From Eggerthella sp. YY7918 (lineage in GTDB: Bacteria > Actinomycetota > Coriobacteriia > Coriobacteriales > Eggerthellaceae): a stretch of DNA of 64,000 nucleotides. The position numbers and the translations under genes were made by a program. The notes below the pieces were generated by a model. It made no database searches. It worked only from the letters and a program-made list of their open reading frames with translations, and was not told the DNA's origin. The DNA is taken from the NCBI RefSeq assembly GCF_000270285.1, contig NC_015738.1:248001-312000 (forward strand), written 5' to 3'. Shown here piece by piece: positions 30,600 to 42,808 of this stretch; within the stretch, counting starts at the first letter, position 1, and the number at the start of each line of letters is the position of its first letter.

Positions 30600-30689
30600 G
30601 AGAACTCCTTCGTTTGCTCGGTGCGCCGGGGCGCTTTGATGCGTATACTATAGTGTAGTCCTTTACTCTTGGTCCTAGACAGGTTTTTT

Positions 30690-32270
30690 ATGACGGAATG
30701 GTTGCATGACGAACAAACTTCGCACAAAGCGCACTGTCCGGTAGCGCGTGCGTGTGGCGCATGCCAGCATGTGGCCGTACCTTACGTCGAGCAGCTTGCC
30801 CGCAAAAACGCGCGCGTCGCCGAACTGTTCGCGAACGTGGCGCCCCAAGAGGCATTGCGACCAATCTTGGGCATGGAAAATCCCTACCATTACCGCAATA
30901 AAGTAGTGTCCCCCTACGCGCCAGGCCGTAAGCTGCCCGGCGGCCCGGGTGCGAACGCTCGAACTGATGCTCCCGCCTCTCGTGGCAAGCGCAACGTGCG
31001 CAATAAGCGCTCGGCCGTTCGTCGCGAAATCCTCTGCGGAATGTATGCGGCCGGGTCGCACCGCATCGTCGACACCGAAGGCTGTCTGATCGAGAACGAG
31101 GAAGCCAAGCGTATCATTCGCGCTATTCGCAGCCTGATGCCCCGCTTCGGCATGGAACCCTACAATGAGGATACGGGCACGGGATTCCTGCGCCATGCCG
31201 TGGTGCGCGTCGGCCACGAGAGCGGCGAAATCCTCGTCACGCTCGTCACGAACGGGCGCGACTTCCCCGGTTCGAAGGCGTTCTGTCGCGAGCTGGTCAA
31301 GCGCTGTCCGACCATCACCACCATCGTGCAAAACGTAAACGAACGTCAAACCAACGTCATCCTCGGACAGCACGAGCAGCGTCTCTACGGTCCGGGCTTC
31401 ATCTTAGACACACTGTGCGGCTTGAGCTTCCGTATCTCATCGCAATCGTTTTACCAGGTGAACGCTCAGCAAACGGAAGTGCTCTACGAAACCGCCATTG
31501 CGCTTGCGGGCTTCACGGGCACCGAGAGCGCCATCGACGCCTACTGTGGCACGGGCACCATCGGTCTTGTAGCTGCGAAGCGTGGTGCTGCCCAGGTGAC
31601 CGGTGTGGATACGGTGGCTTCAGCTATCAAGGACGCGCGTGAAAACGCCCAACACAACGGCGTGGAGAACGCGCGCTTCGTGGTGGGCGATGCGGGCGAC
31701 TTCATGTGCGAGCTAGCCGCAGCGGGTGAACGTGCCGACGTGCTGCTTATGGACCCGCCGCGCGCCGGCGCGAGCGAAGAATTTCTTGAGGCGGCCGCCA
31801 CGCTGGCCCCCGCGCGCATTGTCTATATTTCTTGCAATCCGGAAACCCAAGTGCGTGACCTGGCCTTCCTGCGCAAGCGGGACTACGTTGTGCGTGTTGT
31901 GCAGCCGGTGGACATGTTCCCTCATACGGATCACATTGAGACGGTATGTCTCCTAACCCGAGAAAAGTCCGTCAAGAGCTACGCGTACGTTGACATCACC
32001 CCGTCGGAGCTTGGCATGGGCGGAAAGGTCAAGAAGCCGACGTACAAGCAGATTCAGGCTTACGTGCTGGAGACGCACGGACTGAAGGTGTCCCCGCTGT
32101 ACATCGCGAACGTCAAGGACGAGTTCGGCCTGGAGAAGCAGTTCTCCTACGAGGAAGCCGGGATGTCGGCGAAGAAGCGTCCGAACTGCCCGCCGGAGAA
32201 GCGTGCGGCGATTATCGACGCGCTCATCCACTTCGGCATGCTGGACGAAGACGCCAGAGAGACCGAGTAA
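30690..32270 (+). CDS. rlmD: 23S rRNA (uracil-5-)-methyltransferase RlmD/RumA with element-encoded C-terminal extension
   Basis: 526-residue protein. Residues 1-416 are a TRAM-less RumA: an N-terminal Fe-S cysteine cluster (HCPVARACGACQH), SAM motif AIDAYCGTGTIGLVAA, DPPRAGAS and the catalytic Cys in VYISCNPETQVRDL. From residue 417 (after HTDHI) the sequence is supplied by an integrated element: E-TVCLLTREKSVKSYAYVD and then a ~75-residue domain containing PTYKQIQAYVLETHGLKVS and RPNCPPEKRAAIIDAL. Similar tails occur on clostridial RlmD proteins disrupted by rumA-specific elements. Before insertion the protein would have been 427 residues, ending ECVVLAERVER, close to the normal ~430. The start at 30690 is the first ATG before the cysteine cluster. 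Confidence 0.9.
   Translation: MTEWLHDEQTSHKAHCPVARACGACQHVAVPYVEQLARKNARVAELFANVAPQEALRPILGMENPYHYRNKVVSPYAPGRKLPGGPGANARTDAPASRGKRNVRNKRSAVRREILCGMYAAGSHRIVDTEGCLIENEEAKRIIRAIRSLMPRFGMEPYNEDTGTGFLRHAVVRVGHESGEILVTLVTNGRDFPGSKAFCRELVKRCPTITTIVQNVNERQTNVILGQHEQRLYGPGFILDTLCGLSFRISSQSFYQVNAQQTEVLYETAIALAGFTGTESAIDAYCGTGTIGLVAAKRGAAQVTGVDTVASAIKDARENAQHNGVENARFVVGDAGDFMCELAAAGERADVLLMDPPRAGASEEFLEAAATLAPARIVYISCNPETQVRDLAFLRKRDYVVRVVQPVDMFPHTDHIETVCLLTREKSVKSYAYVDITPSELGMGGKVKKPTYKQIQAYVLETHGLKVSPLYIANVKDEFGLEKQFSYEEAGMSAKKRPNCPPEKRAAIIDALIHFGMLDEDARETE
31930..31945 (+). other. left attachment junction (attL) of the rlmD-integrated element
   Basis: ATCACATTGAGACGG. Compared with ATCACGACGAATGCG at the right junction, the two share ATCAC and, three bases later, GA (31938-31939 and 42773-42774). 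Joining the outer halves at GA restores a normal RumA ending (HIECVVL), so the crossover is placed there. Confidence 0.65.
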
Positions 32271-32285
32271 ATACCGAACGAACAG

Positions 32286-32313
32286 GCCAGCGGGCAACGT
32301 CCCGCTGGCTTTT
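32286..32313 (+). terminator. terminator after rlmD/extension
   Basis: GCCAGCGGG-CAACGT-CCCGCTGGC followed by TTTT, just downstream of the extended rlmD stop. Confidence 0.85.
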
Positions 32314-32329
32314 GTCGTATGTGGGCTTA

Positions 32330-32355
32330 TTTTCTCAAAAATTTTCTCAAAAACT
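32330..32355. repeat. two tandem TTTTCTCAAAAA motifs
   Basis: Two copies of TTTTCTCAAAAA in tandem. The same core in either orientation (GTTTTTGAGAATTT) forms the iteron-like array at 37481-37840. Confidence 0.55.
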
Positions 32356-32446
32356 TATTTTAGACCGCCCCTCGCAGACGCCGACAGCATCAGCCTCCGC
32401 AAGGGCATTGCCCCAGGTCAGGCTATTTATCGGGTTGCACGAACTG

Positions 32447-32476
32447 TTGACAGTATGACACAACCCGAGTTATAAT
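32447..32476 (+). promoter_or_regulatory. strong sigma70 promoter of the structured RNA
   Basis: Perfect TTGACA (32447) and TATAAT (32471) with an 18-bp spacer; predicted transcription start near 32483. Confidence 0.8.
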
Positions 32477-32482
32477 ATAGTC

Positions 32483-32788
32483 ACAAGATGAACGAAGGGC
32501 ATCTTGGAACCGGGAAACCGGTCAGGTACTTTGATAAATGAATAAACACAACAAGATTCGTGAGCATAAGTTCCTTAGCAGGCAACGCCAATAAGCCCTG
32601 CACAAGCCATAGACCGTGACGGGTTTATGGTGACGGAGCACAGCGTCAAAGTGGGTTCACTGTCCGCCCGATACTGAGCGGATATAACTTGCACGATTCC
32701 ACATACACAAAGTGAGAAGCGGCGAATCCGAGTTGTGGCATATGGATTTATTTCCAATATGTCATGACTCGGGTTCGCCGCTTTTTTT
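32483..32788 (+). ncRNA. structured non-coding RNA (~306 nt) upstream of the element primase gene, class unknown
   Basis: Between a consensus promoter and a strong terminator there is no ORF but many nested complementarities: AAGATG/CATCTT; ACCGG-GAAA-CCGGT with a GNRA tetraloop; GCAGG/CCTGC; CCATA/TATGG; TCCGC/GCGGA; and an outer helix pairing CGTG...AAGTT...CC (about 32560-32575) with GG...AACTT...CACG (about 32683-32697), which together form a multi-branch junction. The terminator at 32718 closes it. I do not recognise the family; it could be an element-specific regulatory RNA, a replication control RNA or a riboswitch-like leader of the primase gene. Confidence 0.6.
32718..32788 (+). terminator. 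long terminator hairpin ending the structured RNA
   Basis: AGCGGCGAA...TTCGCCGCT stem of about 25 bp with bulges, then seven Ts; it sits 31 bp upstream of the primase start. Confidence 0.85.
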
Positions 32789-32819
32789 GTTTTTCAAACA
32801 CAAAAGGAGGCAATAGACA

Positions 32820-34583
32820 ATGACTAATGACGAGATGATGGAGATGATTTACACACCGGACACGGTGATAAAGCGGGCAACGGAGGAGTACATCGAGAAC
32901 GCCCGCGCTGACGAGGACACCTACCTCGCCATGCCGCTTGACACGCTCGCGGCAGACCTAACGCGTGTGGTGAACGGAGAAATCGCGAAGGTCAACGAGG
33001 AGCTGAAGTATCGCCGCGATACGCTCAAGGCCGAGAAGGAGAAGGCGAAAGGCGACCCCGGCAAGCTCGCTGAGCTGTCGCAGATTGTCGTCGAGCAGAA
33101 CATCAAGATGCTCGCCTCCCCCAACCCGTACATGCTGGCGTCGGTCATCATGTTCAAGCACCACGTGATTCGCATGAACTACGGCACGAGCGATTCCAAC
33201 TCCACCGACATGTGCCCCCTTGCCGTGTACAACGACAGCGGACACGACGAGGGCATCTACACGACGGACAACGACACCATCGAGAGCATCATCCGCGACG
33301 CCTGCCCGACCATCGTGCAGCGCGACGTGAACGAGACGAAGGCTTTCCTGCGCGCTATGGCTCCCGTGAAGTTCCGCAGCAACGACCGCAACCTTATCGC
33401 TCTGAACAACGGGGTGTTCGACTACGAGACCAAGATGCTCCTGGGATTCGACCCAGAGTGGGTCTTCGCGTCGAAGATTGGCACGGATTACAACGAGAAC
33501 GCCAAGAACGTGTTCATCCACAACGACGAGGACGGCACCGACTGGGACTTCGATTCGTGGCTTGAGGAGCTTTCCGACGAGCCCGAAGCCCCGAAGCTGC
33601 TGTGGCAGATTATCGGTGCGGCGGTTCGCCCGAACACGGCATGGAACCAGGCGGCGTTCTTCTACAGCACGAAGGGGAACAACGGCAAGGGTACGCTGTG
33701 CGAGCTTATCCGCGGCGTTGTCGGGAAGCGCAACTGCTGCTCCCTCTCGCTTGACTCCCTCGGCCGCGAGTTCATGCTGACGCCGCTTCTGAAGGCAAGC
33801 GCCATCATCACGGACGAGAACAACGTCGGCGAGTATCTGGAGCGTACGGCCAACCTGAAGGCAATCATCACGGGCGACGCCCTGAACATCAACATCAAGC
33901 ACCGCGACCCGGTCAGCTACACGTTCCGCGGGTTCATGATTCAGTGCCTGAACGATGCGCCCAAGTTCCGCGACAAGACGGACTCCATGCTGCGCCGCAT
34001 CATCTTCGTTCCGTTCGACAAGTGCTTCACGGGACGCGAGCGCAAGTACATCAAGGAGGACTACCTCAAACGCAAGGAGGTGCGCGAGTACGTGCTGAAG
34101 CACGTGCTGGAGGACATCCCGGACTACTACAGCATCGAGGTTCCGCAGTATTGCAAGGACGCCCTGGACGACTTCCGCCTGAGCAACGACAACGTGGCGG
34201 AGTTCCTGAGCGAGGTGCTGGACGAGCTGACGTGGGACGCCATCTCGTGGAAGGAGCTGTACTCGTTCTACCGTGGCTGGCTCCGCCGCTACGGTTCCGG
34301 CGATTCCGGGCGCGGGTGCGTGAAGTACCGCGACTTCAGGAACTCAGTCCGCAACATCCTCGACACGGGGACTTACGGGTGGGAGTACCACCCGGGAGAC
34401 GGTCAGTTCATGGTTGACGCGGCGTACCACGCAGCGGTCGAGCCGCTTATCAAGGAACTCGACATCAAGGACTTGTCGAACGTGGGCAACTCCGCAACGG
34501 CTGACCATATCGACAGTCTCAAGGGCATCACGACGAAGATTCGCGGCATCCGTCGTCTCGACGGTGCATACGCCGCAGCATAA
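32820..34583 (+). CDS. phage/plasmid primase-helicase, D5/P4 family
   Basis: 587-residue SF3-type DNA helicase with a D5_N/P4-primase C-terminal region. The Walker A is STKGNNGKGTLCELI (around residue 283), followed by a Walker B-like AIITDENNVGEYLE and the conserved FMIQCLNDAPKFRDKTDSMLRRIIFVPF. The N-terminal ~200 residues lack the clear catalytic primase motifs I would look for, so primase activity is uncertain. It is likely the replication initiator of the excised element. GGAGG lies nine bases before ATG 32820. Confidence 0.9.
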   Translation: MTNDEMMEMIYTPDTVIKRATEEYIENARADEDTYLAMPLDTLAADLTRVVNGEIAKVNEELKYRRDTLKAEKEKAKGDPGKLAELSQIVVEQNIKMLASPNPYMLASVIMFKHHVIRMNYGTSDSNSTDMCPLAVYNDSGHDEGIYTTDNDTIESIIRDACPTIVQRDVNETKAFLRAMAPVKFRSNDRNLIALNNGVFDYETKMLLGFDPEWVFASKIGTDYNENAKNVFIHNDEDGTDWDFDSWLEELSDEPEAPKLLWQIIGAAVRPNTAWNQAAFFYSTKGNNGKGTLCELIRGVVGKRNCCSLSLDSLGREFMLTPLLKASAIITDENNVGEYLERTANLKAIITGDALNINIKHRDPVSYTFRGFMIQCLNDAPKFRDKTDSMLRRIIFVPFDKCFTGRERKYIKEDYLKRKEVREYVLKHVLEDIPDYYSIEVPQYCKDALDDFRLSNDNVAEFLSEVLDELTWDAISWKELYSFYRGWLRRYGSGDSGRGCVKYRDFRNSVRNILDTGTYGWEYHPGDGQFMVDAAYHAAVEPLIKELDIKDLSNVGNSATADHIDSLKGITTKIRGIRRLDGAYAAA

Positions 34584-34593
34584 GAGGAGGTAG

Positions 34594-34923
34594 ATGGAAA
34601 TGATGAGCTATTTCATGGAGGAGGTTTACCGGGGGTCTAACCCCGGGTACGGCTCCGGCGATTTGATTATCGCAACGTATGGGGCACGCGGCGACCGCTA
34701 CGCCTACGGCACCTATCACGAGGTCATGGAAGACCCGGAGAACCTGCCCACTGGTCACCGCGGGTTCAAGGAAGAGGTCATGGCGAGCATGAGGGCGGAG
34801 CTTGAGAGCGCCGAGGCGTACGAGCCCTGCGGGGTTGATTTCCTCGATTCGTTGTTCCGTGAGAGCGACAGCAAGCGCGCCGAAGCCATGCGCAAGGCGC
34901 TGGAGTTCATGGAGACCCGTTAG
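34594..34923 (+). CDS. hypothetical small acidic protein of the element
   Basis: 109-residue acidic protein (MEMMSYFMEEVYRGSNPGYG...), no membrane helix and no family recognised. It lies ten bases after the primase stop with a GAGGAGG site, so it is probably translated from the same mRNA. The second ATG at 34603 is an alternative start. Confidence 0.7.
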   Translation: MEMMSYFMEEVYRGSNPGYGSGDLIIATYGARGDRYAYGTYHEVMEDPENLPTGHRGFKEEVMASMRAELESAEAYEPCGVDFLDSLFRESDSKRAEAMRKALEFMETR

Positions 34924-34946
34924 CGGTCTCTACGAAGCCCAGAGAA

Positions 34947-35118
34947 AGCCCACAAACGGGCTGCAAATGGGCAAATGAACGCGAAACGGTCACGTGAGGG
35001 CTGATTAAAGCCCACGCGGAGACCGGCAAGAGCCCACAGATGGGCTGCAAATGGGCTCTGGTAATTCAGAGACCACGGAGAGCCCACAGATGGGCACCAA
35101 AAAGCCCACTAGCGGGCT
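34947..35118. repeat. array of palindromic AGCCCA(N4)TGGGCT repeats
   Basis: Copies at 34947 (AGCCCACAAACGGGCT), a half site at 35009 (AGCCCAC), 35031 (AGCCCACAGATGGGCT), 35081 (AGCCCACAGATGGGC) and 35103 (AGCCCACTAGCGGGCT); several are followed by GCAAATGGGC. Two neighbouring pairs are exactly 22 bp apart, about two helical turns on the same face. It occupies the non-coding gap between two element genes and may be a protein-binding array for replication, transfer or the phage-type regulator downstream. Confidence 0.65.
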
Positions 35119-35148
35119 GCGAACGGTACACGAAAAGGAGGGATTGAT

Positions 35149-35592
35149 ATGACGAAGGAAGATGCACTCCTCATTCTCGAAGCGCCCGAGTTTGCGCTCC
35201 GTGAGCTGGAGAGGGCTGTCGAGCGTTATGAGCGCGCCTACACCCGCGTCGCGGGCGGTGCGATTCGCTACGACAAGGACAAGGTGGATGGCGGCGGAGG
35301 TGACCCAGACATGCCGCTCATCATGGTGGCGCAGCGCTCCATCGAGCTTGATGAGGCGCAGGCCAACTACACGGCCGCCGTGGACACAGCCGAGCGCTAC
35401 ATCGGGATGATTCCCGATTGGCGCAAGCAGGCAGTCCTTACGTCGCGCTACGTGGAGACACCGGCGCTTACATGGCCGCAGATTGCAGAAGCCCTGGGCT
35501 TGAGCCTGCGGCAGACGTACCGACTGAAGAACAACGCCATCGCCGAGCTTTGCGACATGGCATGTGGCGACGTTCTTGCGGAGGTTTCGTAG
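35149..35592 (+). CDS. phage-like sigma-region-4/HTH regulator
   Basis: 147-residue protein with an N-terminal coiled-coil-like region (LRELERAVERYERAYTRV) and a C-terminal helix-turn-helix (LTWPQIAEALGLSLRQTYRLK) resembling sigma70 region 4 or late-gene activators of the ArpU/RinA type found on phages and mobile elements. Preceded by AAAGGAGG. It may control the mob genes or bind the repeat array just upstream. Confidence 0.72.
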   Translation: MTKEDALLILEAPEFALRELERAVERYERAYTRVAGGAIRYDKDKVDGGGGDPDMPLIMVAQRSIELDEAQANYTAAVDTAERYIGMIPDWRKQAVLTSRYVETPALTWPQIAEALGLSLRQTYRLKNNAIAELCDMACGDVLAEVS

Positions 35593-35700
35593 GGGGTCAA
35601 GGGGGAGCATCCCCATTGTCCAGGGTAGTAGTGTTGAGGGTTCCCCCTTGACACTACTACTACTGGATTATCACGACTGACAAAGGAAGTCGTGATGGAG
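35593..35700 (+). other. candidate origin of transfer (oriT)
   Basis: Two consecutive perfect 9-bp inverted repeats lie directly upstream of the relaxase: TAGTAGTGT/ACACTACTA (35626-35634 with 35651-35659, 16-nt loop) and ATCACGACT/AGTCGTGAT (35670-35678 with 35688-35696). The first carries TAGTGTTGAG, similar to the TAGTGTG/TTA nick region used by MobV relaxases. Position next to mob and the structure support oriT; the nick site is unproven. Confidence 0.55.
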
Positions 35701-35728
35701 TACGACGATATGTTAGGAGGACGAAAAG

Positions 35729-36997
35729 ATGACGAATAGCAAAGTGACGACGGTGCGTTTCCACATGGGCGGTGATGACGAAATCAAGACGGAGCACAAC
35801 CGTCGAGATGAGAACACCGTCAAGTGGGAAAAGCACATCGACATGGACGGGAAGCACGAGGTGCTTCGCGACATGGAGTTGGAGTCAGTGTATGAGGAAT
35901 TGTTCGGACGAGCCATTGAGGAGTACGACGCTAAGCAGAAGCGCCGCGACCGCCGCTATGGCGGGGTCTATGGTTACATGGAGCAGGTGCGCGCTGATTC
36001 CCGAGGACGCGTCAACCACAAGACGCGTACGAAGGGCAAGAACCTCGCCTACGAGGTCATCGTAGGCGTTGGTTCCGTCAAGCCGGAGCTTGACGAGGAG
36101 ACGGGCAGGTTCAAGCGTGACAGCAAGGGAAACTTCGTGACGCCGTACCTGGTGCCCGACGACATCTGCGAGGCTGTGCTGAAGGCATACCTCGCGGCGT
36201 GGGACGCACGCAACCCGCATCTGCGCCTCTATGGCGCGTACCTCCACGGCGACGAGGGCGGTGCGATGCACATGCACCTCGACTTCGTTCCGTGGGCGGA
36301 CGGGTACGAGCGCGGGCTCAGCGTGCAGACGAGTCTCAACCGGGCGCTGGCTCAGCAGGGGTGCGTCTCCGAGGGCTGGACGCGCAACTCTCACGTGATA
36401 TGGGCGGAACGCGAGCGCGATTTCATCGAGTCGATTCTGACCGAGCAGTACGGCTACACCATCGTCCACCCGGATGCGGGCAAGTACAAGGAGTCCATTC
36501 CGTGGCGCGTGTACGCACAGGAGCAGGAAGCCCTGAAGCGCATCGACGACCAGAAGGTGAAGCTGAGCGCCATGCTCCGCGAGGCGGACGACATGGAGAC
36601 AGAGCTGGAGATGAAGCGCCAGGAACTCGAAGAGGTGACCGAGGCGACATGCGCCATCGAGGAGATGAAGGCCATCGAGATGCCGGACGGGCGCAGCCTG
36701 TGGGAGCACAACATGGCACGCGTCCGCGAGGAACGCGAGCGCAAGCGCCGCGAAGAGGAGGCCAAGAAGCGCAGGCGCAAGAGCGAGTCTAGGGTTCACC
36801 GGGCGCCGAACGTGCTTCCTACGGAGTATGAGGAGCAGATGGACGAGCAGAAGGCGCGCATCGAGCGCCAGGTGCGCGAGGATGTTCTTGGCCGCAACGA
36901 AGACCTCACGCGCAGGACGCTGGCAGCGAGCGAGAGGGTGCTGTCGAAGGCCGAGAATGAGTCCGAGTTCGATTTCGACTCTATCCGCAGAGGATAA
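35729..36997 (+). CDS. MobV-type relaxase (plasmid recombination enzyme, Pre/Mob family)
   Basis: 422-residue Pre/Mob protein that nicks and leads single-stranded transfer from oriT. Motifs: EHNRRDENT early (MobV 'HNxR' type) and YLHGDEGGAMHMHLDFVPW, matching the HxDE..xHxH metal-binding motif of MOBV relaxases. The C-terminal third (residues 270-410) is a highly charged coiled coil. Preceded by TTAGGAGGA. Immediately downstream is a bidirectional terminator at 36996. With no conjugation genes in the element it would depend on another plasmid or ICE. Confidence 0.88.
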   Translation: MTNSKVTTVRFHMGGDDEIKTEHNRRDENTVKWEKHIDMDGKHEVLRDMELESVYEELFGRAIEEYDAKQKRRDRRYGGVYGYMEQVRADSRGRVNHKTRTKGKNLAYEVIVGVGSVKPELDEETGRFKRDSKGNFVTPYLVPDDICEAVLKAYLAAWDARNPHLRLYGAYLHGDEGGAMHMHLDFVPWADGYERGLSVQTSLNRALAQQGCVSEGWTRNSHVIWAERERDFIESILTEQYGYTIVHPDAGKYKESIPWRVYAQEQEALKRIDDQKVKLSAMLREADDMETELEMKRQELEEVTEATCAIEEMKAIEMPDGRSLWEHNMARVREERERKRREEEAKKRRRKSESRVHRAPNVLPTEYEEQMDEQKARIERQVREDVLGRNEDLTRRTLAASERVLSKAENESEFDFDSIRRG

Positions 36998-37041
36998 AAA
37001 AAGAACCGCCCCGCAGCGTTTCGCTGTGAGGGCGGTTTTTT
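36996..37041. terminator. bidirectional terminator between relaxase and convergent gene
   Basis: A-run, GAACCGCCC...GGGCGGTT stem with inner CAGCG/CGCTG, then TTTTTT. Confidence 0.85.
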
Positions 37042-37058
37042 CGTGCTCTGAGGGCGTC

Positions 37059-37337
37059 TCAGCGGATGTCCGGGGCGGGAACGTAATCCCAGCTTGTGCC
37101 GAAGTGCGTCACACCGAGTATGTACAGGTCAAGCTCTTCGTCGTGGAACACAAGCTCGTCAGTGTGCTCCATGATGAACGATGGGTCGCTGATGATATGC
37201 CACTGGAACACCTCGTCCCACGGTGCGCAGTCACCGCTGACGAGTTCCAGCGGGCGCTTCGCCATCTCATTCGCGAGAACCATGTCCCCGGCGGTGCGTG
37301 CAAGGTCGGCGTATGTCTTGATGTTTTCGTATGCCAT
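37059..37337 (-). CDS. hypothetical small protein of the element
   Basis: 92-residue protein MAYENIKTYADLARTAGDMV...; Asp/Glu/Trp-rich, no known family recognised. The ATG at 37337 follows GAAAGGAAGGGAG; the long open frame upstream runs through the repeat region and is not coding. Its 5' leader includes the left arm of the 25-bp inverted repeat at 37431. Confidence 0.65.
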   Translation of the reverse strand: MAYENIKTYADLARTAGDMVLANEMAKRPLELVSGDCAPWDEVFQWHIISDPSFIMEHTDELVFHDEELDLYILGVTHFGTSWDYVPAPDIR

Positions 37338-37430
37338 TGTTGCTCCCTTCCTTTCTTCACGCGTACCGTCGAAGCCGCCCCGCGGCTTTTCCCCTGCATC
37401 ATCCACCGCGCCCACCCCGTAAAAGGCAGC

Positions 37431-37869
37431 ATCCACTCCGTACACAGCAGGAGGGTGGATTTGAGGTTGATGTGCTTCAAGTTTTTGAGAATTTCGGCCA
37501 CTTTTTGAGAATTTTAGGCCTGTTTTTGAGAATTTCGGAGAGTTTTTGAGAGTGAAAAAGGGCGCTCCGGGAGGCAAAAACGTTCGTAAACAAGGGTTTT
37601 TCTTTTATTTTTTCTTAAAAATTCTCAAAAACTCAAAAAAATTGGAAGAAAGTTCCTATAGAGCCTTTCAAAGTCCTTTGCCTATATATATAAAAGTTCC
37701 AAAAAAAATGAGTTTTTGAGAATTTAGCCCGTTTTTGCCCTTAGTATGGCTTACTGTGGGATACTGTGAGCAAACGTGTTCTCAGAACGTTCTCAAAAAC
37801 GTCTTTTCACTCTCATTTTTGCCTTAAAATTCTCAAAAACTCAGCCCTCCTGCTGTGTACGGAGTGGAT
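37431..37869. other. AT-rich iteron region flanked by perfect 25-bp inverted repeats; candidate replication origin
   Basis: The 25-bp segments 37431-37455 and 37845-37869 are exact reverse complements. Between them (389 bp) lie at least eight copies of a TTTTTGAGAAT core: forward at 37481, 37501, 37522, 37542 and 37712; reverse around 37617, 37790 and 37830. The first four are spaced 20, 21 and 20 bp. An AT-rich stretch with TATATATATA (37683) lies in the middle. There is no ORF. This looks like an origin with iterons and a melting region, or an invertible segment. Confidence 0.6.
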
Positions 37870-37904
37870 GATGCCTCCTTTTATGCGGGAGCGGCGCATG
37901 TGAT

Positions 37905-37938
37905 AAAAAAGACGCCACCCGATTGCTCGGATGGCGTC
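37905..37938 (-). terminator. terminator of the surface-protein operon
   Basis: Minus strand GACGCCATCC...GGGTGGCGTC followed by TTTTTT, just past the stop at 37958. Confidence 0.8.
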
Positions 37939-37957
37939 TGTGACGCGACGGTATGCG

Positions 37958-39115
37958 TTAGCGGGTTGCTCCGCAGTCGCAATACTGGTAGTCCACGTAA
38001 GTCTGCGTCTCGTAGTGGCCGTGGTCTTCCGTGTGGGAACCAACCTGAACGGTTTGCTCAGTGTACTGAGGCACGTTGCTGTAGTTGGTGGAAAGTCCCT
38101 GCTTTGCGAGTTCAACGGAATGAGCCTTCACGGCGTTGATATCTGTCGTGGAGTATCCGTCAGCGGAGAACACATACAGATAGTGGCTGAAGACCTGCTG
38201 GGTTTCGTAGTCAGGAACAGTCACAATGTTCGAAACCCAAACCTGCTTGGTCGCGGTGTGGTCCTTCCAGCTGTGGCTGTGCGCCGGTGCGGAAGGCTGG
38301 CTCGAAGAACCGCCCGAAGGCTTGCTGGAAGTGCCGGAACCGTTGCTGTTGGAACCGGAGTTCCCTGCGTTGGAACCGCTGTTGCCGTTACTGTTGGCGT
38401 TGCCCTTGTCGCTGGTGTCGCCGTTATTGCCTGAAGGCGTCGTTGCCTCCGGCTGACTGTTCACGTCGACCTCCTTGTCGGCGTCGGTGGCCTCCTGCTT
38501 GGTCTCATCAGAGGCGTTCGGGTTGTTGGCCACGTTGCCCTCCAGCTTGTCGAGAATGTCCTTGCCGGCGTCGCCCTTCAAAGTCTCGTCGCCGTTCTCG
38601 ACGGCATCCTTCGTCTGGTCGACAATGTCCTGCAACATGTCGTCAGTCACCTTGTCGGCCGGGATTCGCGTCATCTCACAGGTCACGCTCAGCGTGTCCG
38701 TCGCGTCGGCATCGACCGTCACGGTCTGCGCCTCGCCCGTGTCGAACAGCTCGTAAGCGGAACCGTCCGAGTTGACCGGGCTGATGAAGTCGACCGTGTA
38801 GTCTCCCTCTTCGAGGGTGACGGTCGATGTGCCCTTGTTGCCGTCGGCGTCCGGCGAAACCGCGTGGTAGAAGTCCACATCATCGCCCGTAATGTGGGCG
38901 ATGGCCGGAGTGGAGTTCTCATCCCAACCGGTGTCGGCGGTCACGTTGAGGACGAGGTCGGCGGTCTCCGCCTTTGCTGTGCTGTTCTGCTTGTCTGCTG
39001 TGGAAAACGCGCCTGTCGCTGCTGCAATTACTACGGCAACGACTGCGATGATAGCGATGGCGATTGCCGCGGTATGCGGTTTGTGAGATTTAATCCAGTC
39101 AGTTGCCTTCTTCAT
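37958..39115 (-). CDS. membrane-anchored surface protein with low-complexity linker and His/Cys-rich C-terminus
   Basis: 385 residues. One N-terminal anchor helix (KPHTAAIAIAIIAVVAVVIA), an extracytoplasmic domain with beta-rich, Thr/Asp-rich sequence (residues 50-150), then a Ser/Gly/Asn linker (GNSGSNAGNSGSNSNG, about 230-275), and a C-terminal domain beginning HSHSWKDHTATKQVW and ending YQYCDCGATR. HxHxW plus CxCG tails recur on surface proteins of gut Actinobacteria and may bind metal. The lipoprotein gene upstream ends in TAA directly abutting this ATG. Possible roles are surface exclusion, adhesion or host interaction; none shown. Confidence 0.75.
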   Translation of the reverse strand: MKKATDWIKSHKPHTAAIAIAIIAVVAVVIAAATGAFSTADKQNSTAKAETADLVLNVTADTGWDENSTPAIAHITGDDVDFYHAVSPDADGNKGTSTVTLEEGDYTVDFISPVNSDGSAYELFDTGEAQTVTVDADATDTLSVTCEMTRIPADKVTDDMLQDIVDQTKDAVENGDETLKGDAGKDILDKLEGNVANNPNASDETKQEATDADKEVDVNSQPEATTPSGNNGDTSDKGNANSNGNSGSNAGNSGSNSNGSGTSSKPSGGSSSQPSAPAHSHSWKDHTATKQVWVSNIVTVPDYETQQVFSHYLYVFSADGYSTTDINAVKAHSVELAKQGLSTNYSNVPQYTEQTVQVGSHTEDHGHYETQTYVDYQYCDCGATR

Positions 39116-40060
39116 TTAGTCCACCTCTATTCCTTCTGTGTCGGGGGCGTCAAACGTGAAGCCCGCATGGTCATCGTTGACTATTGTGGCAAGCCCGCCG
39201 AATCCTCCGAACGTCATGTCGTAGACGGTCTGATTTTCAACAGGAGACAGCTGGATGCTTTCGTTGGTAATTGAGTCCCCGGCAGGGGAAGAGCTTCCAT
39301 CTATACCCCATGTCAATACGTCGTAAGGGTCTTGTTCCTCATCGTTCACCTCTACTGTGGCGAAGGAGTATGCGGGCGCATCGAATGATATCGTTTCGCT
39401 CTGCGTGCTGTTTCCTGTACCGTCGGTCTCAATGTGAAGCGTGTACGGCTGAGCCTGTGGCTCCTGATACGTAGCCGCCTCAGCTGCGGCTTGTCCCTCC
39501 TTCGCGTCGCTCAGTATTGACTCCATATCGGAGAGCGCATAGCTGTACGTAGACGCCAGCCATTCGACATCCACACCTTCGGCTTCCCCGGCGGGCAGGT
39601 CTGATAGCGCAGTCCCGCCAAGCGCGGTCGCGTACGTGCCGTTGTCGTAGTCCTCTTTCAGAGTATCATAGATGCTTTGAACTACCTCAATAGCCTTTGC
39701 GTTGCTGTCGATGGCGGTCTGACGTCTGGTGTCGAATACCTCCTTGTCCTGCTCCTTTGCCAGTTCGATGATTTCATCGTCAGACAGACCGTTCACGTCT
39801 GCGAACGTCGCGCTGTTACATAGGTAGGCAGTGACGTTCCCGTTTCCGTCAAAGACAAGAATGCGTTCGATATCGCCGTCTTTTTCTATTGCGTCGTTCT
39901 CGTCGTACTGCACCCATACGCTTTCTTGACTGAAAGCCTGTGATGCAGAAAGCGGTTCACTCGCGCTCTTTACATCGTTCGTTCCTCCACAGCCTGCGAG
40001 TGTGAGTGTGAGCAGGCATGTAGCGGCTACCGCAGCTGCGGTAAATCGTCTTTTCTTCAT
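39116..40060 (-). CDS. lipoprotein of the element, unknown function
   Basis: 314-residue lipoprotein: signal MKKRRFTAAAVAATCLLTLT with lipobox LAGC. The mature protein is acidic and has no family I recognise; TLHIETDGTGNSTQSETISF and VYDMTFGGFGGLATIV suggest a beta-rich domain. Start 40060 is chosen for the signal peptide and the preceding GGAGGTAC; the longer frame to 40180 is not plausible. First gene of a minus-strand pair with 37958-39115, divergent from the XRE regulator, which may control both. Confidence 0.75.
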   Translation of the reverse strand: MKKRRFTAAAVAATCLLTLTLAGCGGTNDVKSASEPLSASQAFSQESVWVQYDENDAIEKDGDIERILVFDGNGNVTAYLCNSATFADVNGLSDDEIIELAKEQDKEVFDTRRQTAIDSNAKAIEVVQSIYDTLKEDYDNGTYATALGGTALSDLPAGEAEGVDVEWLASTYSYALSDMESILSDAKEGQAAAEAATYQEPQAQPYTLHIETDGTGNSTQSETISFDAPAYSFATVEVNDEEQDPYDVLTWGIDGSSSPAGDSITNESIQLSPVENQTVYDMTFGGFGGLATIVNDDHAGFTFDAPDTEGIEVD

Positions 40061-40206
40061 GCTATGTACCTCCAACAGTTCTGATTTTTGACCGCCCCCG
40101 CCGCATCTGAATAGATGCGGGTCTAATGATATGGCTGGGACAGAAGAATATGAAGTGTATAGGCCGAAAAAAGCCCACACAGGTTATTATATTATACACA
40201 TAATCT

Positions 40207-40238
40207 CCATACAATTCAAGTGTAGATGAATTGTATGG
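40207..40238. promoter_or_regulatory. 12-bp perfect inverted repeat, probable operator
   Basis: CCATACAATTCA and TGAATTGTATGG separated by eight bases, between the divergent lipoprotein and XRE genes and overlapping the start region of the latter. Suits an autoregulated XRE operator. Confidence 0.6.
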
Positions 40239-40249
40239 GCGGTGAAAGG

Positions 40250-40585
40250 ATGAAATACTACGACATAGGACAGCGCATACGCCACTATCGAAAGGCGTGC
40301 GGACTGTCGCAGGAGGCTCTTGCCGATAAGGCTGACATTTCCGTAACGCACATGAGCCACATAGAGACCGGCAACACGAAGCTGAGCCTGCCGGTGTTCG
40401 TCAAGATTGCGGAGGCGCTGGACGTGCAGACGGACGCCCTTCTCTATGACTCCCCGAGATTCAGCAAAAACGTCGCGGCGGAGCGCGTCCAGAAGGTGCT
40501 GGACTCCTGTACTACCGAGCAGCTGTACGTGCTGATTGAGACCATGGAAGCACTCAAGGTCTCCATGGACAAGCATGTGAGGTGA
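40250..40585 (+). CDS. XRE-family transcriptional regulator
   Basis: 111-residue regulator with a Cro/C1 helix-turn-helix at residues 5-60 (IGQRIRHYRKACGLSQEALADKADISVTHMSHIETGNTKLSL split across the fold) and a short C-terminal dimerisation region. Start ATG 40250 gives the canonical N-terminus; ATG 40235 and 40226 are alternatives inside the operator-like repeat. It probably represses itself and the divergent surface operon. A strong terminator follows. Confidence 0.85.
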   Translation: MKYYDIGQRIRHYRKACGLSQEALADKADISVTHMSHIETGNTKLSLPVFVKIAEALDVQTDALLYDSPRFSKNVAAERVQKVLDSCTTEQLYVLIETMEALKVSMDKHVR

Positions 40586-40612
40586 TTCGGTTGATTTACA
40601 GCTTCGACTCAT

Positions 40613-40649
40613 GAAAGCCCGGTACGCAGCGTGCCGGGCTTTCTTTTTT
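40613..40649 (+). terminator. terminator after the XRE gene
   Basis: GAAAGCCCGGTAC/GTGCCGGGCTTTC stem and a run of Ts. Confidence 0.88.
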
Positions 40650-40693
40650 ACGCCCATAGGACGCGTCTCCAGCCCATAACCTCCGTACCGGGA

Positions 40694-40722
40694 TTGACTA
40701 TGTACACGAATGGGCGTATAAT
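40694..40722 (+). promoter_or_regulatory. sigma70 promoter of the HTH-recombinase operon
   Basis: TTGACT, 17-bp spacer, TATAAT; start near 40729, about 20 bases before the HTH gene. Confidence 0.8.
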
Positions 40723-40748
40723 ATCCTCATATATGGAGGTAAATCAAT

Positions 40749-41036
40749 ATGGACAAGAGCATCGAAGATATGAGCCCTTCCGAGGCTCTGCGATATATGC
40801 GCGGGCTCTACGGCATGAAGCGCTCCGAGTTCTGCGAACATTTCGGCATACCGATGCGCTCCCTGCAGCACTGGGAGATTGGCGACAGGAAGCCCGCACC
40901 GTTCGTCATCGGCCTCATGCGCAAATGCTACGAGCTTGAGCGCGAGAACGAGCGCCTGCGCGACTGCATCGACACGCTCGACCGTCAGAACGACGAGCTG
41001 AAGGCACTCCTCAAAGGCGAGGGGGTGGTTCAATGA
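40749..41036 (+). CDS. small HTH protein coupled to the recombinase (candidate directionality factor)
   Basis: 95 residues: an N-terminal helix-turn-helix (YMRGLYGMKRSEFCEHFGIP then MRSLQHWEIGDRKP) and a C-terminal coiled coil (ELERENERLRDCIDTLDRQ). The stop overlaps the recombinase start (ATGA at 41033), so the two are translationally coupled. Small coupled HTH proteins next to integrases are often recombination directionality factors or regulators; neither is shown here. Confidence 0.8.
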   Translation: MDKSIEDMSPSEALRYMRGLYGMKRSEFCEHFGIPMRSLQHWEIGDRKPAPFVIGLMRKCYELERENERLRDCIDTLDRQNDELKALLKGEGVVQ

Positions 41037-42808
41037 CGAGAAAGGCAAAGACCTGTTTCCTATACGTTCGCGTCTCCACGAAGATGCAGGTGGAGAACGG
41101 CGAGTCAATCGAGGCGCAGCTTTACGACCTGCGCCAATATGCGAAGCGTGAGAACCTGCGCATATTGCACGAGTACATCGACGACGGTTATTCCGGCAAG
41201 AACATCACGGGACGCCCTCACTTCCAGGAGATGATGGAAGAGATAAAATCCGGCGTCCATGTTGACTATGTGCTCGTGTTCAAGCTGAGCCGATTCGGGC
41301 GCAATGCGGCGGACGCCCTTTCGTCTCTGCAGTTCATGCAGGACTACGGCACGAACCTCGTCTGCGTGAAGGACGGCATCAACAGCGAAGCGCAGATGGG
41401 AAAGATGATGATTGCGTTTATGTCGGCGTTCGCCGAGATGGAACGAGAGAACATCCTCGTACAGACCATGGCCGGGCGCGAGCAGAAGGCGCGCGAGGGC
41501 AAATGGAACGGCGGGCAGGCACCCTTCGGCTACCGGCTCGTCAAGGATGAGAAGGGCAAGGGGCATCTCGAAATCGACGAGGACGAGGCGGAAATCGTGC
41601 GCATCATCTTCCGCGAGTACACGAAGAACGGCAAGGGCGTGCATGCGATAGCGTCATGGCTCAACACGCAGGGCTACCGCAAGAAGATACGCGGCAACTG
41701 CAAGTATGAGCACTTCGCCCCCGGCACCGTGAAGAACATCATACGCAACCCGGTGTATGCCGGAAAAATCGCCTTCGGGCGTCGCAGGACAACGCCTGTC
41801 AAGGGCGAGCGCAACGTGTACCACATGGTCAAGCAGGACAACTTCGACATCTACGAGGGCGAGCACGACGCCATCATCGACGAGGCGACGTGGAATGCCG
41901 CACAGAAGCGCCTGGCCGAAGACTCGCATCCGTTCCCGGAAGCGAAGCCAGACGGTCACACACACCTTCTCACGGGGATGCTGGTCTGCCCGGTGTGCGG
42001 GCGCAGCATGATAGCCAACGTGTCGCGCGGCAAGCGCAAGAAGGACGGCACCATCGGCAAGACGACGTATGCCTACACGTGCAAATACAGCAAGCGGCAG
42101 TTCGGCCACGACTGTACCTTCACCCGCCAGTTCAAGCAGGAATACATAGACCGCGAGGTCATCGAGGTCATTTCCCGCGCTGCCCACTCCGCCGTGTTCG
42201 AGGAGCGCGTGCGCGAGGAACTGGACGCCGCCGTGGACATCGAGAAGCTGGAGGCGGATGTGGCGCGTATCGGCAAGGCGCTGGAGAACAACGGCGCAGC
42301 CCGCCGGATGCTGTCCCGACAGCTGGACGCCCTGGATGCGTCAGACCGCAGCTATGAGCGCAAGTACGAGGACATGCAGGCTCGTCTCGACAAGCTGTAC
42401 GACGAGAGCGCCGATATAGAAGAAGCACTCGATGAGGCCGAGGCGAAGCTGGAGAGCGCGAAAGAGAAGCAGGTCACGACCGCGAGGGTGTACGAGATGC
42501 TGGACGAGTTCCAGGAGAAATTCGACACGTACGACCCGGCGAAGCAGAAGGAGATTCTGCAGCAGGTCGTGGAGCGTGTGGAGATAGACCCGGACGCGAA
42601 CCCGAAGAAGGGCGACGCGATAGTGAAGCGCGTGCGCTTCAAGTGCCCCGTGTCGTTCTACGGAACGCTGCCGGAAGAGGCTTACGACGTGCTCGGCATC
42701 AACGAGTTCAACCGCCTCGAAACGACGGAATACACGCCTGACGGAAATTCCCGGGTTGATGAGAATCACGACGAATGCGTGGTGTTGGCAGAAAGGGTTG
42801 AAAGGTAG
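41033..42808 (+). CDS. large serine recombinase (element integrase)
   Basis: 591 residues. Resolvase catalytic domain 1-~150 (LYVRVSTKMQ with the nucleophilic Ser, KLSRFGRNAADAL, AEMERENI), Recombinase domain (APFGYRLVKDEKG...), zinc ribbon CPVCGRSM...HDCTF around residues 319-365, coiled coil ~400-490, and a C-terminal region. The final 11 residues ECVVLAERVER lie beyond the attR crossover and are the original chromosomal end of rlmD. In the excised circle the frame would continue into the 110-codon tail now attached to rlmD, giving about 690 residues. Confidence 0.93.
   Translation: MTRKAKTCFLYVRVSTKMQVENGESIEAQLYDLRQYAKRENLRILHEYIDDGYSGKNITGRPHFQEMMEEIKSGVHVDYVLVFKLSRFGRNAADALSSLQFMQDYGTNLVCVKDGINSEAQMGKMMIAFMSAFAEMERENILVQTMAGREQKAREGKWNGGQAPFGYRLVKDEKGKGHLEIDEDEAEIVRIIFREYTKNGKGVHAIASWLNTQGYRKKIRGNCKYEHFAPGTVKNIIRNPVYAGKIAFGRRRTTPVKGERNVYHMVKQDNFDIYEGEHDAIIDEATWNAAQKRLAEDSHPFPEAKPDGHTHLLTGMLVCPVCGRSMIANVSRGKRKKDGTIGKTTYAYTCKYSKRQFGHDCTFTRQFKQEYIDREVIEVISRAAHSAVFEERVREELDAAVDIEKLEADVARIGKALENNGAARRMLSRQLDALDASDRSYERKYEDMQARLDKLYDESADIEEALDEAEAKLESAKEKQVTTARVYEMLDEFQEKFDTYDPAKQKEILQQVVERVEIDPDANPKKGDAIVKRVRFKCPVSFYGTLPEEAYDVLGINEFNRLETTEYTPDGNSRVDENHDECVVLAERVER
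42765..42780 (+). other. right attachment junction (attR)
   Basis: ATCACGACGAATGCG inside the recombinase 3' end; shares ATCAC-N3-GA with attL. Codon phase at GA equals that at attL (both at codon positions 1-2). Confidence 0.65.

Follow-up and report, generated by a model that had tools for sequence, protein, structure and literature searches.

According to Ambroset et al. (2016; PMC4701971), integration of the streptococcal integrative and conjugative elements (ICEs) that target rumA reciprocally exchanges the 3' parts of rumA and of the serine integrase gene, with direct repeats of 2-21 bp of which one copy lies in rumA and the other in the integrase gene. The authors also draw on Mx8 to suggest a possible difference between the two forms of the integrase, and remark in passing that the exchange alters the reading frame in the streptococcal ICEs, although the wording of this remark may mean something else. 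The attP site of Mx8 lies in its own tyrosine integrase gene, a 112-residue C-terminus being replaced by 13 residues to give a less active enzyme (Magrini 1999, as related in PMC4701971). In mycobacteriophage BPs, attP is located in a coding gene and integration yields a product that is 33 residues shorter and changed in activity (PMC4557955), and the archaeal suicidal integrases of the SSV type have the attachment (att) site within the integrase gene (PMC8371274). Here, a 10.8 kb element that interrupts the rRNA methylase gene rlmD (rumA) was examined in a 64,000-nucleotide stretch of Eggerthella sp. YY7918 (NC_015738.1, positions 248,001 to 312,000; hereafter the window). All window features described below are on the plus strand.

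Exchange of gene ends at rlmD

As it stands in the chromosome, rlmD (30690-32270; TIGR00479 rumA, E 3.7e-98) comprises 416 codons up to the crossover core followed by an element-borne end of 110 codons, which translation places in the same frame; the start was taken as the ATG at 30690, a TTG being present also at 30669. The insertion lies between 31938 and 42774, and the 2-bp GA common to both ends supplies the first two letters of a Glu codon at attL (31938-31939) and attR (42773-42774) alike, the former placed in agreement with the uninterrupted rlmD of relatives and the latter from the end joins. The left junction is read as ...CGGATCACATT-GA-GACGGTATG and the right as ...GAGAATCACGAC-GA-ATGCGTGG. 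On the right, the displaced 3' end of rlmD (42775-42808), which resembles the C-termini of relatives and completes RlmD once joined to 31939, is read in frame by a large serine recombinase gene (41033-42808; PF00239, PF07508 and PF13408; phrog_95). The integrated recombinase open reading frame (ORF) has 591 residues, 580 codons of its own and an 11-residue rlmD stub at the end, with the Resolvase, Recombinase and zinc-ribbon domains confined to residues 9-380. Joining the outer flanks to recreate the empty site gives an RlmD of 416 + 11 = 427 residues with the C-terminus HTDHIECVVLAERVER, and joining the element ends as in a circle gives a recombinase-tail ORF of 580 + 110 = 690 residues that runs without a stop. 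The initial annotation of this DNA had described the split of rlmD, the phase of the GA at both ends, the in-frame continuation of either gene into the other and the sizes of the rejoined products, and each of these was borne out. Read from the nucleotides, the two junctions demonstrate an in-frame swap of C-termini of the kind produced by attP x attB recombination at the GA core.

The position of the crossover at the GA core is well supported, because the rlmD genes of relatives run uninterrupted over it. When 26 genomes, including that of the window, were searched for rlmD, 16 gave a match at E <= 1e-90; nine of these loci are readable and uninterrupted across the site, five were uninformative (L174, L177, L179, L180 and L185), one is the window locus, and one (L182) has a tail of its own. 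The gene of L172, which is 85% identical, reads through the crossover as ...HTDHIETIALAERVEG..., and that of L173, from the same genus, as ...HTDHIETVALIECGEG.... A megablast search of E. coli genomes returned no match.

A second element of this type is present in the same genome, in a second rlmD-like gene (L008 3295-4923 and L011 1459-3246; G000:C1 about 1299294-1318388). Its tail and recombinase are 47% and 50% identical to those of the window element, the recombinase likewise reads on into the displaced end of the gene without a change of frame, and a D5-type protein and a relaxase (PF03432) are encoded also; ParA-like and type I restriction genes were seen, by eye only, between its tail and its recombinase. 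Genome G028 (L010) provides a third case of the arrangement, with a recombinase that is the closest relative of the window enzyme. This element is probably unable to move on its own, because the recombinase gene is frameshifted. A tail 77% identical to that of the window is found in a Ruminococcaceae metagenome-assembled genome (L081 1014-1334; L161), where it is joined to a recombinase from the window clade but meets a stop about ten codons in. Elements of this type are rare near the window: counting the window's own genome, 4 of the 138 family genomes have the tail, and 3 of the 396 class genomes have a recombinase matching at E <= 1e-100.

Conservation of the reading frame in related recombinases

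Tail loci were collected from viral contigs (48 loci), from genomes (the best 80 of at least 559) and from phage and plasmid records, and recombinases were sought nearby in any frame. A nine-row alignment served as the query against the viral contigs, in which the window tail as a single query found no matches. The resulting 159 tail matches lie in 147 loci, a few of which are present twice. The tail follows RlmD in frame in 67 matches, 66 of them with at least 85 codons to the stop (the two loci of the window genome, W/L001 and L002/L008, are each counted twice here), and lies out of frame behind an RlmD-like gene in one, L006. A recombinase of the window's kind precedes the tail in frame in 40 matches, comprising 19 tails that start at the core, as attP-like junctions, and 21 that start later, on sister recombinases. 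One further match, L045, appears out of frame; its frame is intact at the core and breaks within the tail. A distant type of recombinase is found near the tail in seven matches, and the remaining 43 have neither RlmD nor a recombinase of the query set within 1200 bases upstream.

The phase noted at the window extends to its relatives, since all 44 recombinases of the window clade with a readable 3' end, the window's included, cross the core in frame. The set contains identical rows; the duplicates L009, L012 and L013 and the contig-end rows L047, L050 and L059 were left out. Twenty-one of the 44 run into a tail (L038, L045 and L081 were assigned to this group by hand) and the other 23 into a different end, 6 to 37 residues long, which at the window is the displaced rlmD end and presumably is so in the rest. 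L061, one of the 23, runs off its contig, and the core codon of L021 is Gly instead of Glu, in frame nonetheless. Between the core and the last motif conserved in the recombinases lies a linker of 16, 18, 19, 20, 26, 36 or 41 codons, the value of 19 for L043 having been set by hand. On a tree of 39 rows representing 36 different sequences, from which five short rows were dropped and in which L010 has a long branch, its middle being misread through the frameshifted gene, linker length changed at least six times, on every occasion by whole codons. A single site would be in frame by chance in 1 case of 3, and the frame would survive six changes with a probability of (1/3)^6, or about 0.0014, given independence. 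This points to selection that keeps the recombinase frame open up to the core. The kept frame does not by itself make the tail the reason for it, because a distant recombinase family holds another constant phase.

The exchangeable tail and its possible role

The following explanation is proposed. A small integrative element encodes a large serine recombinase, and attP lies within the 3' end of the recombinase gene, where it is read in frame. As the sequence shows, crossover of attP with attB at the GA in the final conserved Glu codon of rlmD swaps the C-termini and leaves both frames intact. The predicted circle form of the recombinase would be 690 residues long, its tail being perhaps a helix-turn-helix (HTH) domain; the chromosomal form has 591 residues with the 11-residue stub, and RlmD bears the tail. 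Crossover in a disordered linker would allow both proteins to tolerate the swap, RlmD requiring just the first few residues of the tail. The tail itself may bind DNA or the recombinase and act as an accessory domain favouring the reactions of the circle form, and its loss would alter the integrated form, which would then work differently and need another factor for excision. As a whole, and mostly for its anatomy, this explanation is judged somewhat probable. The functional step, in which the tail is an accessory domain of the circle form and the integrated form is different, is held more tentatively, with a little less than even confidence, and a switch through loss of the tail is plausible.

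Recombinase-tail fusions of the sort predicted for the circle do occur in nature. In the fecal scaffold MT839491 (L017) the C-terminal half of a recombinase is joined in frame to a tail, its N-terminal half lying in another frame; in MT835809 (L028) a near-identical recombinase C-terminus runs into VECVVALHRVDM; and L020 and L021 are further fusions. Moreover, 22 sister recombinases, some of them near-identical, keep the RVST and SRFGRN motifs and have as a permanent part a homologous tail that lacks the core motif. A switchable recombinase, or its start, lies next in tandem at 21 of the 22 loci; in these pairs the first recombinase has the permanent PHROG 27283-like tail and the second stops at the core or at the contig end. 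The sister tail is under purifying selection about as strong as that on the catalytic region (five usable pairs, two sharing an identical row). The sister recombinases are the best evidence that a recombinase-tail protein is functional rather than a by-product. Tandem serine recombinases were seen at L035, L037-L039, L042-L045, L047-L050, L052, L055, L057-L061, L099 and L166.

The sisters bear directly on the main rival explanation, in which the tail is a mere repair of the target gene: attP would overlap the recombinase gene for compactness, the tail would cap RlmD, and the fusion in the circle would be a by-product. The 67 tails in frame behind RlmD are as this explanation would have them, and it accounts readily for the use of the same kind of tail out of frame by the distant recombinase family and for the reassortment of tails described below. 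It does not account for the 22 recombinases that hold the homologous domain themselves, nor for a tail of about 100 residues retained under purifying selection. The length is left unexplained because native RlmD ends immediately past the conserved motif in some relatives (...HVETVALLTRE in L175, ...HIETIALIERM in L176), which indicates that a few residues suffice, an argument qualified by L178 and L186, in which RlmD has a long end of its own. Target repair alone is considered rather unlikely.

The tail proper (31940-32270) matches PHROG 27283 over its residues 34-96, as do 59 of the 65 aligned tails. Its fold, which was compared with the LacI-type HTH domain, is perhaps HTH-like, placed on a disordered linker; a Foldseek search with the tail gave nothing at E <= 0.001, and resemblances to ribosomal protein L23 (one of 65 members, E 0.004) and eS24 (E 0.025) were dismissed as being at chance level. 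In a poorly resolved tree of 64 tails (70 columns), recombinase-joined and RlmD-joined tails are intermixed. Tail-family proteins of 67-72 residues stand alone in the viral contigs L072-L076, L078 and L080, in several cases upstream of larger genes. Together with the putative HTH-like fold, these short ORFs would suit a free-standing DNA-binding or regulatory module, active as a small protein or on RlmD, to which its carriers are incidental. In the studied clade, however, the tail is in frame with a recombinase or RlmD (a start codon of its own was not sought systematically), and such a module is thought improbable. That the stand-alone genes are partners of a recombinase was rejected, a recombinase being beside only 4 of 13 such loci, three of the four near-identical. 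At L067, L068, L069 and L074, distant-type recombinase genes are followed by a gene for a 133-residue protein, antitoxin-like on impression only, and then by a stand-alone tail-family gene.

Several observations weigh against the proposed role of the tail. In three of three cases, two of them near-identical, the distant family of rlmD-specific recombinases is out of frame with a tail of this kind and crosses the core in a phase that is constant but different; constancy of phase was for this reason rejected as proof that the fusion is selected for. The recombinases of L035 and L099 are identical over the part compared and their tails 30% different, a pattern that tandem insertion and exchange would be expected to give and that led strict co-evolution of the tail with its recombinase to be rejected. 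Finally, the tail is interrupted in 3 of the 21 recombinase-joined cases (L038, L045 and L081), which weakens any claim that it is required. The initial annotation had stated that in the circle the domain belongs to the integrase; this is too strong, because tails swap between recombinases and the distant family is out of frame. Members of that family were found in pAPRE01 (L016; 7245-9300 and 11582-11881), L056 and L142. Short VDMFPxT-like fragments of rlmD, possibly from repeated insertion, precede tails away from rlmD in L018 and at L016 11582.

Identical recombinases with different tails could also mean that most recombinase-tail junctions in the databases are borders of tandem elements and not circles, a reading compatible with the others and given a serious chance, though one short of even. 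An exact terminal overlap of 15-399 bases was found in none of the 14 whole records tested, and pAPRE01 has two tails and two recombinases, arranged as in nested insertion. Closure of a circle, however, cannot show on short contigs, and the frame result stands in any case, because the fusion protein is encoded whether the junction is that of a circle or a tandem border.

How serine integrases are directed towards integration or excision is a central question, to which the usual answer is a separate directionality factor. The fullest version of the proposed explanation, which is put forward as a speculative possibility, is a state-dependent recombinase in which a DNA-binding accessory domain would be on the enzyme in the circle only and be parked in frame on an rRNA methylase after integration; phages with tandem recombinases would pair it with a sister in which the domain is permanent, and tandem integration would let tails swap as modules. 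If true, an enzyme domain removed by the enzyme's own reaction would be a built-in answer to the question of integration versus excision. The element also provides an example of a host enzyme that bears a domain from mobile DNA, and RlmD ends of this kind in databases are element-borne, not native.

Gene content and comparison with known systems

Besides the recombinase, the window element encodes a D5/DUF5906-type primase-helicase (32820-34583; PF19263 and PF08706; phrog_864), a phage-type transcriptional regulator (35149-35592; phrog_36, E 1.1e-10), a possible mobilisation protein (35729-36997; phrog_31146, of unknown function, with no Pfam match above the cut-off) and a Cro/CI-type HTH regulator (40226-40585; PF01381, E 1.2e-13). 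The possible mobilisation protein may have an HUH-like motif, which would make it a putative relaxase. The start of the recombinase gene is overlapped by 4 bases by the gene for a 95-residue HTH-like protein (40749-41036; PF01381 at E 0.0015, under its cut-off), and a small HTH-like ORF overlaps the recombinase start also in the distant relative L017 (887-1189); this small gene is a candidate regulator or directionality factor. Of the ten proteins scanned, eight are from the window element, and no conjugation genes were named among these.

Like the enzymes of the rumA-specific elements, the window recombinase is of the serine type and has the Resolvase, Recombinase and zinc-ribbon domains; the element, too, sits in rumA/rlmD with a short repeat (GA) and both C-termini reciprocally exchanged (PMC4701971). 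Unlike the rumA ICEs, it is 10.8 kb in size and no conjugation module was identified among the eight element proteins scanned. Contrary to the change of frame stated in the side remark of PMC4701971, the frame is kept in all 44 clade genes, that of the window among them; nor was that remark reproduced by the streptococcal loci L031 and L032, in which the recombinase frame stays open into an end like those of the other rows.

Mx8 is similar in that attP lies in the integrase gene, 110 residues becoming 11 in the present case. The window enzyme is a serine recombinase, however, and no report was found in which the Mx8 tail becomes an in-frame end of a host protein. As described for BPs (PMC4557955), the window attP sits inside the gene of the altered protein; the BPs gene differs in encoding a repressor, the long form of which is destroyed via an ssrA-like tag. 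Integrases of the SSV type are split on integration (PMC8371274), whereas the window recombinase keeps all recognised domains in one ORF. PHROG 27283 is of unknown function in PHROGs and is carried here by recombinases and RlmD.

Titles and opening lines of abstracts in the open-licence literature yielded no further account of such an exchange, or of a permanent tail in sister recombinases. The initial annotation took the reciprocal in-frame recombinase fusion to be undescribed as a control mechanism; the reciprocal exchange itself has been known since 2016, together with the idea that the integrase forms may differ (PMC4701971). What appears to be new is the exchange of a domain in frame and the existence of a sister recombinase in which the tail is permanent.

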